This document shows, piece after piece, positions 46,152 to 51,732 of a stretch of DNA of 64,000 nt (within the stretch, counting starts at the first letter, position 1; the number at the start of each line of letters is the position of its first letter). Position numbers and translations under genes: made by a program. Source of the DNA: Paracoccaceae bacterium. Lineage in GTDB: Bacteria > Pseudomonadota > Alphaproteobacteria > Rhodobacterales > Rhodobacteraceae. The notes beneath the pieces are model-generated. The model worked only from the letters and a program-made list of their open reading frames with translations, had not been told where the DNA came from and did no database searches. The stretch is from the NCBI GenBank assembly GCA_024304985.1, contig JAMWZC010000004.1, positions 248,001 to 312,000 on the forward strand, in the 5' to 3' direction.

Positions 46152-46476
46152 GTGTCCCTTCCTTCTTGGGTTGCGAAAGGACCGGCGCCAACATTGCACA
46201 CGACGGTATACCTTTCGATGCCTTTTGCGGCCTTGATACTCTTTTTAGCGGCTCTGTCACGTCAGCACAGCCCCGAGATGCAGAAAAATCTGCGCGAAGT
46301 GACGCAATGAAGGGTTTCGTGATCACAACAGGTTTAGCTGTGATCACAAACGCACCCATCGCATCCCCTCAAACGGGAATCACGCGACGTAAACCCGCCC
46401 AGATCCGGTCAGGACAAGCAGGCTTTTGCCCATGTCGGCACCCGAACCCCTGCGAAACCGGTCACGCATTTTGTGA
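46152..46476. other. Non-coding region between sdhC and the mch operon
   Basis: This 325-bp gap has no convincing ORF. It holds the sdhC promoter, the paired TGTGATCACA-type sites (46319-46348), part of a third site at 46472, and a short dyad GCAGA-aaaa-TCTGC (46280-46293). No intrinsic terminator for the upstream mch gene was found. Confidence 0.6.
46318..46348. promoter_or_regulatory. Paired operator candidates upstream of sdhC
   Basis: CGTGATCACA (46318-46327, 9/10) and TGTGATCACA (46339-46348, perfect), centres 21 bp apart (two helical turns), about 165-200 bp before the sdhC ATG. The same pair with the same spacing precedes sucC. Confidence 0.65.
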
Positions 46477-46481
46477 TCACA
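46472..46481. promoter_or_regulatory. Third TGTGATCACA site, over the mch stop codon
   Basis: Perfect palindrome preceded by TTT, covering the TGA stop of mch, about 325 bp before sdhC. It may act with the pair at 46318-46348 by looping. Confidence 0.5.
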
Positions 46482-47535
46482 TCGGCATCAATGCCCAGTA
46501 ATCCAGATCCAGCAACACATGCGGCTGATACTTGCCATCGTCGCTTTTCAGGCGGAACGCCCCCGCCGCATTGGTCGCGACCAGCCGCAACCGGATCGCC
46601 CCCACGCCCGGCGCTGATGTCTCGGCCTTGTCCAGCACCTCGGACCAGGCGCGGATCGTGTCGCCACTGAAACAGGGGTTGGCATGGGCGCCCGCGTTCA
46701 GACCCACGATCATCTGCGCATTGGCCAGACCATTGAAGGACAGCGCCCGCGCCATGCTGATCACATGCCCGCCATAGATCAGCCGCCGCCCATCCGCACG
46801 CTGCGTGGCGTCGAAATGCACCTTGGCGGTGTTCTGCCACAGCCGCGTGGCGATCATGTGCTCGGCCTCCTCGACCGTCACACCATCCACATGGTCGATC
46901 GTCTCGCCGATCTCGTAATCGCCCCAGCGATGCGGCGCGCCGGACAGGGTGAAATCATGGTTCGTGAAATCCAGCCCCTCGGGCACCACAAGCTGATCCG
47001 GCGTCAGGGCCTGCGCCAGTTCCGGCACCACCGTCTCCGGCGCTGGTGCGCTGGTATCGTTCTTGCGCACCATCACCCAGCGCACATAATCCAGCACCAC
47101 CTCGTCCCGCTGGTTCAGGCCGCGCGTGCGCACATAGACCACGCCCGACTGCCCGTTGGAATTCTGCTTCAGCCCGATGACCTCGGAGGTCGAGCGGATC
47201 GTATCCCCCGCATAGACCGGCTTCAGCCAGCGCCCCTCGGCATAGCCCAGATTGGCAATCGCGTTCAAAGACACATCGGGCACGGTCTTGCCAAAGACGA
47301 TGTGAAACGCCGCCAGATCATCCAGCGGGCTTTCCGGCAGACCACAGGCGCGCGCGAATTCATCCGACGAATACAAGGCATGCCGCATCGGATAAAGCGC
47401 GTGATACATCGCCCGCTCTCCGCCCGACACCGTGCGCGGCACGGCATGGTCGATCACCTGCCCTATACGATAGTCCTCAAAGAACCGACCCGCGCTTGTC
47501 TTGATCGGAACCACATGAAATTGCGGGACTTTCAT
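46477..47535 (-). CDS. mch: Mesaconyl-CoA hydratase
   Basis: MaoC-type dehydratase of the ethylmalonyl-CoA pathway, converting mesaconyl-C1-CoA to beta-methylmalyl-CoA. It is 352 residues with two hot-dog domains; the first has 'GRFFEDYRIGQVIDHAVPRTVSGGERAMYHAL' (about 16-47) and 'GKTVPDVSLNAIANLGYAEGRW', the second 'WGDYEIGETIDHVDGVTVEEAEHMI'. The ATG at 47535 directly follows the DUF1737 stop codon. Last gene of the mcl2-nnrU-DUF1737-mch operon. Confidence 0.92.
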   Translation of the reverse strand: MKVPQFHVVPIKTSAGRFFEDYRIGQVIDHAVPRTVSGGERAMYHALYPMRHALYSSDEFARACGLPESPLDDLAAFHIVFGKTVPDVSLNAIANLGYAEGRWLKPVYAGDTIRSTSEVIGLKQNSNGQSGVVYVRTRGLNQRDEVVLDYVRWVMVRKNDTSAPAPETVVPELAQALTPDQLVVPEGLDFTNHDFTLSGAPHRWGDYEIGETIDHVDGVTVEEAEHMIATRLWQNTAKVHFDATQRADGRRLIYGGHVISMARALSFNGLANAQMIVGLNAGAHANPCFSGDTIRAWSEVLDKAETSAPGVGAIRLRLVATNAAGAFRLKSDDGKYQPHVLLDLDYWALMPM

Positions 47536-47739
47536 TCACTGCTCTCCAAGACTGAGTTCAGGGGAATAGGTGCCTTGCACCTCCTTGGTGACGGCTTGCC
47601 CACAGCGCATCACGCCATTGGCCGCATCGAACGCATAGGTCGGGCCGCCATGCAGCACCCAACCCTTGTTCAGCGCCTCTGTCACCTTGTGACAAAAGGC
47701 GGATGTGTCATCGGCGGTCAGGAAACGGTAAAGCTGCAT
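47536..47739 (-). CDS. DUF1737 family small protein
   Basis: A 67-residue protein from ATG 47739, starting MQLYRFLTADDTSAFCHKVT with the DUF1737 pattern 'KVTEALNKGWVLHGGPTYAFD' (about 18-38). A soluble single-domain protein of unknown function, often found fused or alone in alphaproteobacteria. It is packed between nnrU (4 bp) and mch (0 bp), so it is surely cotranscribed with the mesaconyl-CoA hydratase. Confidence 0.82.
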   Translation of the reverse strand: MQLYRFLTADDTSAFCHKVTEALNKGWVLHGGPTYAFDAANGVMRCGQAVTKEVQGTYSPELSLGEQ

Positions 47740-47743
47740 CACA

Positions 47744-48289
47744 TCACCCCGGAAACGGCCAGACACCCAGCCAGGCATGGATCGCAGTCATCAGGCCAAA
47801 GGTCACCAGCGTGATGACCACCAGAAGAATATCCTTCTTCACCTCGCCCGGAGCGGGCCGCGCCCAGACTTCGGACCGGTTGATCAGGATCACCGATCCC
47901 ACCGCCCAGACCAGCATGCCGCCGAACAGGATGATCGAGGCCAGATCCCCGTTCACCAGCAGATGCGCCACCGCCCAGATCTTGACCGCCGTCAACTGCG
48001 GATGCCGCATCTTGCCGCGCAGACGGCCTGTCGTGGCGCTCATACCATAGACGAACACGGCGATCAGCATCATCAGGTTGTTCAGATGCACGGTCCAGCT
48101 TGGCGGGGACCAGACATGGATGAACTCTGCTCCGCGATAGCCGAAGATCATCATCAGCAGGCTGGTCACCAAAGCCACGGCCACCAGCCCCTTGCCCCTG
48201 TTGCCCATCGCGGCACGCGCATCGGGGGCCAGTCGCTTGAAGTAATGGGCCGCCGCCCAAAGGATCACGCCGAGGGTCAGAAGGATCAT
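47744..48289 (-). CDS. NnrU family membrane protein
   Basis: A 181-residue inner-membrane protein with five or six helices, e.g. about 1-15, 37-58, 72-95 and 130-178, and the NnrU segment 'HVWSPPSWTVHLNNLMMLIAVFVYG' (about 60-84). The family was named from the nitrite reductase cluster of Rhodobacter but has no proven biochemical role, and related proteins resemble isoprenylcysteine methyltransferases. Here it sits between mcl2 (14 bp) and DUF1737, in a carbon-metabolism operon without any denitrification gene. Confidence 0.85.
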   Translation of the reverse strand: MILLTLGVILWAAAHYFKRLAPDARAAMGNRGKGLVAVALVTSLLMMIFGYRGAEFIHVWSPPSWTVHLNNLMMLIAVFVYGMSATTGRLRGKMRHPQLTAVKIWAVAHLLVNGDLASIILFGGMLVWAVGSVILINRSEVWARPAPGEVKKDILLVVITLVTFGLMTAIHAWLGVWPFPG

Positions 48290-48303
48290 GGGGAACGCTC
48301 CGC

Positions 48304-50453: not shown

Positions 50454-50615
50454 TTCCGGCCCTGCTCGTGAAAATTGCGCCCTGTCACGCATTTAGCCGC
50501 ATCCGCAGGCGGACAACAGCCCCCCTCGCTGCCGCAGCGCGGCGCAGCACTCTTGCGCGGCGACGCGGAAGGGACTAGGCCATGCGGCAAAATCAACCAA
50601 GCGGAGACAGTTCCA

Positions 50616-51578
50616 ATGGCCAGACCCAAGATTGCCCTTATCGGCGCCGGACAGATCGGGGGCACGCTCGCCCACCTCGCCGCGCTGAAGGAGCTGGGCG
50701 ATATCGTCCTGTTCGACATTGCCGAAGGCACCCCCGAAGGCAAGGCGCTGGATATCGCGGAATCCGGCCCCTCGGAAGGGTTCGACGCAGCCCTGCGCGG
50801 CACCCAGTCCTATGAGGATATCGCGGGCGCGGATGTCTGCATCGTGACCGCCGGTGTGCCCCGCAAGCCGGGCATGAGCCGTGACGACCTTCTGGGCATC
50901 AACCTCAAGGTCATGAAATCCGTGGGCGAGGGCATTGCAAAACACGCCCCCGATGCCTTCGTGATCTGCATCACCAACCCGCTTGACGCGATGGTCTGGG
51001 CGCTGCGCGAATTCTCGGGCCTGCCCCACAACAAGGTCTGCGGCATGGCCGGCGTGCTGGACTCGGCCCGCTTCCGCCACTTCCTGAGCCTTGAGTTCGG
51101 CGTGTCCATGCGCGACGTCACCGCCTTCGTGCTGGGCGGCCATGGCGATACGATGGTGCCGCTGGTGCGTTACTCCACCGTTGCAGGCATCCCGCTGCCG
51201 GATCTGGTCAAGATGGGCTGGACCACGCAGGACAAGCTGGACGCCATCGTGCAGCGCACCCGTGACGGCGGCGCGGAAATCGTGGGCCTTCTGAAAACGG
51301 GTTCCGCATTCTACGCCCCCGCGACCTCGGCCATTGAAATGGCCGAAGCCTATCTGAAAGACCAAAAGCGCGTCCTGCCCTGCGCGGCCTATGTGGACGG
51401 TGCCTACGGTCTGAAAGGCTTCTACGTCGGCGTGCCCACCGTGATCGGCGCGGGCGGTGTCGAAAAGGTCGTGGACATCACCATGAACAAGGACGAACAG
51501 GCGATGTTCGACAAGTCTGTCGATGCCGTCAAAGGTCTGGTCGCCGCCTGCAAGGAAATCGACCCCTCGCTGGCATAA
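50616..51578 (+). CDS. mdh: Malate dehydrogenase (NAD)
   Basis: TCA-cycle enzyme, 320 residues, LDH-like type III MDH. The NAD loop is GAGQIGG (8-14), the arginines of the mobile loop are in '[15 protein letters not shown]' (about 79-93), and the catalytic His is in '[11 protein letters not shown]' (about 172-182). Start ATG at 50616 with GCGGAGA upstream. It is followed by its own terminator, so sucCD are separately driven. Confidence 0.96.
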
Positions 51579-51624
51579 GCCCATACAACTATTGGTTTCG
51601 CAGACGAAACCTCGGTTCCAAGAC

Positions 51625-51658
51625 ATCAGGGCTGGCCATGGGCCGGCCCTGATTCTTT
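51625..51658 (+). terminator. mdh terminator
   Basis: Stem ATCAGGGC (51625-51632) with GCCCTGAT (51646-51653), extended by GGCC/GGCC inside, about 12 bp in total, followed by TCTTT. It lies between the mdh stop and the sucC operator pair. Confidence 0.65.
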
Positions 51659-51701
51659 CGCAAATCACCCGAACAGCGCATGACTCTGCCGAGTCCCGCT
51701 T

Positions 51702-51732
51702 TGTGATCACAGATTTTCAGGGTGTGATCACA
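51702..51732. promoter_or_regulatory. Paired operator candidates upstream of sucC
   Basis: Two perfect TGTGATCACA palindromes (51702-51711 and 51723-51732) with centres 21 bp apart, the same arrangement as at sdhC, about 110-135 bp before the sucC ATG. They lie after the mdh terminator, as expected for a sucC promoter region. Confidence 0.7.

Follow-up and report, generated by a model that had tools for sequence, protein, structure and literature searches.

Paired palindromes upstream of sdhC and sucC are predicted operators of the AkgR ortholog in a Paracoccaceae bacterium

Two pairs of a short palindrome lie upstream of the sdh and suc genes in a 64,000-nucleotide stretch of a Paracoccaceae bacterium genome (contig JAMWZC010000004.1, positions 248,001 to 312,000; hereafter the window), one between mch and sdhC and the other between mdh and sucC. 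Judging from sequence comparisons, these palindromes are very probably the operators of this genome's ortholog of AkgR, an already known activator of the tricarboxylic acid (TCA) cycle. We assign them to the AkgR regulon because the pairs are conserved, a regulator gene co-occurs with them, a site lies at this regulator gene, and the AkgR motif and targets have been published.

Upstream of sdhC, the predicted proximal operator (46318..46327) reads CGTGATCACA, which differs by one mismatch from TGTGATCACA, and the predicted distal operator (46339..46348) is a perfect TGTGATCACA. Both predicted operators of sucC, the distal (51702..51711) and the proximal one (51723..51732, 107 bp upstream of the sucC ATG), are perfect. 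The site search confirmed the centre-to-centre distance of 21 bp that had been claimed for both pairs. The original prediction had also counted four perfect copies in the two gaps; the count was correct (46339, 46472, 51702 and 51723), but the sdhC pair is made of one perfect and one mismatched site. Genome-wide (3.76 Mb), we found five perfect copies of TGTGATCACA, four of them inside about 5.4 kb of the window. One perfect copy is expected per 1.2 Mb under a first-order Markov model, in rough agreement with the initial estimate of one per million bases, and one per 2.9 Mb from base composition. When one mismatch was allowed, the window contained eight sites compared with a mean of 1.48 in shuffled sequences (largest 6; none of the 100 shuffles reached 8). 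The further one-mismatch sites, at 6530, 26775 and 44427, are single copies and the one at 26775 falls inside an open reading frame (ORF), as would be expected of chance repeats. In contrast, pairs of such sites at 21 bp were absent from 30 simulated 64 kb sequences.

The pairs are conserved upstream of both genes in relatives. The sample consisted of named loci around sucD, the best 80 of a larger number, plus the window (81 in total). In seventy-four of them sucC was preceded by 250 bp or more of sequence (three lacked the gene and four the upstream DNA), and 48 presented sdhC, the other 33 fetched stretches being without it. Accepting up to one mismatch per site, the pair was found in all 74 sucC promoters, with a spacing of 21 bp in 73 and 20 bp in one, and in 47 out of 48 sdhC promoters, with a spacing of 21 bp in 43, 20 bp in three and 24 bp in one. 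The only sdhC locus without it (L026) has a 21-bp pair, but with three mismatches in all. Among these sites, preselected at no more than one mismatch, the GTGATCAC core was practically invariant, and the GT at positions 1-2 and the AC at positions 7-8 of the 10-mer were near-invariant in the 148 sucC and 94 sdhC sites. These dinucleotides agree with the GntR family consensus, in which operators are palindromes built of GT and AC half-sites. Midway between the two sites, the spacer was AT-rich (81% in sucC and 69% in sdhC; flank, 45% and 44%). Non-functional repeats could also be preserved by recent common descent; however, the spacing is fixed in 73 out of 74 sucC loci while most columns flanking the pairs hold little information. 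In a Pseudotabrizicola locus (L013:7815-7866), sucC is preceded by a run of three sites spaced at 21 bp, and G135 similarly carries two overlapping pairs.

The third site in the window (46472..46481) covers the mch stop codon, as had been noted, and is not conserved. Extra sites near the sdhC pair appeared in 7 out of 47 loci compared with 3 out of 47 in a control stretch, and their distance was not fixed. This copy probably does not belong to the paired unit.

We then looked for the pairs beyond these loci. Two copies of GTGATCAC separated by a gap of 1 to 31 bp were present in 133 out of 149 genera of the host family, and the reversed control pattern appeared in none of the genomes listed. 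Among the 75 places listed, the gap was 13 bp in 64, 12 bp in four, 10 bp in two, 16 bp in one, 19 bp in two and 23 bp in two. The exact 12-mer TTGTGATCACAA proved too strict as a search pattern (11 out of 41 genomes), and four genomes had pairs separated by 28 bp, which were set aside, the sequence between their sites being similar and coding-looking. A gap of 23 bp, which sets the centres 31 bp or about three helix turns apart, occurs in two genomes, at G042:C12:38212-38250 (L111), in an ORF-poor interval, and at G136:C8:47342-47380; these two pairs are possible extra targets. In a class-wide sample, a pair with a gap of 12 to 14 bp was carried by 5/5 genomes of the family versus 5/380 of the others. 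Three of these five extra-family pairs were examined (L176 and L182 were left out): one preceded another GntR/FCD gene and two were not evidently linked to the TCA cycle. G295, which belongs to a different family of this class, has a GTGATCAC pair spaced at 21 bp about 30 bp upstream of a GntR/FCD ORF (L175:990-1903), so this relative may use the paired arrangement on its own GntR/FCD gene.

The remaining perfect site of the genome, the fifth, ends 7 bp upstream of the ATG of a gene that encodes a GntR/FCD regulator of 216 aa, located behind a YgjP-like gene outside the window (L005:843-1493, minus strand). Its GntR and FCD domains were recognised by PF00392 (46.6 bits, cut-off 27) and PF07729 (60.6 bits, cut-off 24.3). 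The top match among solved structures was Escherichia coli McbR (PDB 4p9f, E = 1.4e-20, residues 18-211), yet McbR is distant in sequence and has different targets. H141, H184 and D206 of the FCD domain were invariant in 130/130 aligned regulator proteins, D206 occupying what we take to be a position normally held by a metal-binding histidine. Ahead of the regulator gene, 77 out of 110 loci carried a site within one mismatch, 67 of them a perfect one. Seventy of the 77 sites were placed 1 to 14 bp before the start of the query and none was accompanied by a second site, while control windows inside the gene presented no site at up to two mismatches (0/110). In a further set of 20 loci, mostly chosen for a regulator near suc, the site was found in 10 out of 19, L279 being excluded from the count due to a contig end. 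Both sets together gave a single site ahead of the gene in 87 out of 129 relatives. The stretch around the regulator also contained suc or sdh genes in 17 of these 20 wide loci, most of them chosen for that linkage. In the class-wide sample, the ortholog was present in 5/5 genomes of the family; outside it, the best match among 380 genomes (E = 3e-41, 36% identity) was no better than the second GntR gene of this genome (39% identity). This second gene lies at G000:C6:168745-169353 (L324), and many relatives also carry a second GntR gene at about 40% identity.

The regulator gene and the pairs tend to be present or absent together across the host family. When genomes lacking a match below E 1e-50 were counted as regulator-negative (16 out of 149 genera), 130 genera had both gene and pair, three only the pair, three only the gene and 13 neither (Fisher p = 1.8e-13, uncorrected for kinship). 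Among the genomes with only the gene, G040 carries a weaker 21-bp pair (two mismatches), and G122 and G147 have no true sucC in the assembly. In addition, none of the 12 regulator-negative genomes whose SucC was at least 73% identical presented the pair, all having six or more mismatches. On a FastTree phylogeny of 101 SucC proteins, presence required five changes (six for the negative group), of which the well-supported branches force only two or three; the trees were built from few genes. Some basal regulator-negative genomes may never have had the regulator. The suggestion that a single regulator uses matched pairs to control the lower TCA cycle is thus borne out by the pairs at sucC and sdhC together with a co-occurring GntR/FCD gene that mostly bears its own site. 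Chance or non-functional descent is refuted by the conservation of the loci and by this co-occurrence, and we assign it a negligible probability.

We take AkgR to be RSP_0981 of Rhodobacter sphaeroides. According to excerpts of Imam et al. 2015 (PMC4344238), RSP_0981 is a GntR protein whose predicted targets are the genes for succinyl-CoA synthetase, succinate dehydrogenase and 2-oxoglutarate dehydrogenase. Excerpts of a second paper (PMC6365646) report GTGATCAC among the binding sites of AkgR, which they call a transcriptional activator. The same excerpts describe PS417_07240, a GntR regulator of a deoxyribonate cluster in Pseudomonas simiae that is 32% identical to AkgR and has the conserved palindrome GTGATCAC once, at positions -47 to -40 relative to the start codon. 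PS417_07240 shares the palindrome with the system studied here but differs in pathway and in having one site, whereas the AkgR regulon coincides with it in motif core, in sdh and suc as targets and in regulator family. The gene neighbourhood also corresponds, as seen in Cereibacter azotoformans, whose ortholog (73-74% identity) lies after ygjP and before sdhB; this order of ygjP, regulator and sdhB matches what the numbering of RSP_0974-6 and RSP_0981 implies for R. sphaeroides. By way of this Cereibacter genome, the regulator would be orthologous to RSP_0981. Two differences were found: in our genome the regulator gene no longer belongs to the sdh cluster (it lies on contig 10 and the cluster on contig 8), and it has a site before its start codon that the C. 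azotoformans ortholog lacks.

The original prediction had named CceR next to AkgR, and another factor (CceR, an FNR/CRP-type or a further protein) could bind the pairs, the GntR gene merely sharing the motif. CceR, a LacI family protein that we take to be RSP_1663, reportedly also controls TCA-cycle genes in R. sphaeroides, and its published regulon lists the sdh genes; NtrC is also predicted for sdh in the excerpts of PMC4344238. However, the motif predicted there for RSP_1663 is a GTT N6-8 AAC inverted repeat, and none of the conserved sites, which read GTGATCAC, contained such GTT/AAC half-sites. CceR thus differs in predicted motif and in protein family, and the motif comparison favoured AkgR, for which GTGATCAC is reported in the excerpts of PMC6365646, over CceR. 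Moreover, the GntR gene itself bears a site and is lost along with the pairs. Binding of the pairs by another factor is therefore very improbable, and CceR may act at sdh through other sites. Literature searches with TGTGATCACA, TTGTGATCACAA and three shorter strings retrieved nothing recognisably on this bacterial motif among the matches listed. Neither the invariant pair nor the quantised sdhC distance detailed below was found described in the literature searched, the primary AkgR paper being outside that search.

Alignment of the sdhC leaders revealed a conserved GTGAC and, 16 bp after it, a weaker element that contains TA. In the window, the -35-like element reads GTGACA (46255..46260, minus strand) and is 62 bp away from the proximal site centre; TATCAA (46233..46238, minus strand), 16 bp after it, is a tentative -10-like element read from the sequence and the alignment. 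The GTGAC anchor was found in 45 out of 47 sdhC loci. Its distance from the proximal site centre was 51 bp in one locus, 61-64 bp in 33, 72-74 bp in seven and 83-84 bp in four, with no values between these groups, while the distance from GTGAC to the sdhC ATG varied between 56 and 120. At 10.5 bp, the phase concentration (R) was 0.90 for the distance from pair to GTGAC versus 0.35 in the comparison, and the distance groups required seven changes on a tree of four proteins. Assuming that GTGAC begins near -35, the sdhC sites would be centred near -98 and -119 of the predicted start. In the sucC leader, a conserved TGTG anchor (51797..51800, plus strand) was matched in 51 out of 74 loci, at 59 bp from the pair in 15 and at 68-70 bp in 36. 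These groups required only two changes on the tree and the anchor-to-ATG distance was also fairly fixed, so sucC adds little to the phasing.

Since the distances to the sdhC -35-like element differ by whole helix turns, an activating unit that faces RNA polymerase is the simplest reading. The AkgR ortholog would bind each target as two dimers placed side by side, two helix turns apart and on one face of the DNA, ahead of the sdh and suc promoters, both of which it would activate. Binding of the two dimers may be cooperative, and the unit would have to face RNA polymerase and might contact it. By means of the single site before its own start codon, the regulator probably limits its own expression, in a putative autorepression. 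We give roughly even chances to the full model, in which a rigid tandem-dimer platform, placed some 98 and 119 bp ahead of the predicted sdhC start, acts as one unit on RNA polymerase and is moved by evolution only in whole turns, and the lone site sets the dose of the regulator. Alternatively, the ortholog could bind the pairs as a repressor that is released by a metabolite. FCD-type GntR proteins are often repressors, and repression would fit the lone site at the start codon of the regulator gene. However, AkgR is called a transcriptional activator in the excerpts of PMC6365646, and a pair located upstream of the -35-like element at whole-turn distances fits activation better than blocking; we hold repression at the pairs to be improbable.

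Several observations weigh against the activation model and its regulator. Strict sigma-70 scans of both the sdhC and the sucC gap detected no promoter, the sdhC period scan was broad (R between 0.86 and 0.91 for periods of 10 to 11 bp), and phasing was less telling at sucC (R of 0.95 versus 0.76 for anchor to ATG). The regulator's own site was missing in 42 out of 129 relatives, including C. azotoformans. In addition, G019, G096 and G114 (91, 77 and 100% complete, in 210, 50 and 320 contigs) carry the pair and no regulator gene; the gene was possibly missed in these assemblies.

The genes downstream of the pairs were supported by Pfam domains. The sdh operon, on the minus strand, begins with sdhC (45768..46151, Sdh_cyt) and includes sdhA (43561..45366, FAD_binding_2 and Succ_DH_flav_C) and sdhB (42430..43209, Fer2_3 and 4Fe-4S domains). 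On the plus strand, sucC (51840..53033, ATP-grasp_2 and Ligase_CoA) is followed by sucD (53038..53919, CoA_binding and Ligase_CoA), sucA (53977-56940) and sucB (56944-58458), the last two with 2-oxoglutarate dehydrogenase and acyltransferase domains. Pfam also supported mdh, mch (mesaconyl-CoA hydratase) and an HpcH/HpaI lyase in the window.

Altogether, a palindrome spotted by eye is now linked to AkgR, a TCA-cycle regulator already named. The AkgR regulon itself is that of a known regulator; what is offered here is a testable rule for the activator, with two sites 21 bp apart at a whole-turn distance from the sdhC -35-like element. If true, the tandem-dimer platform would represent a distinct activation geometry for FCD-type GntR proteins.

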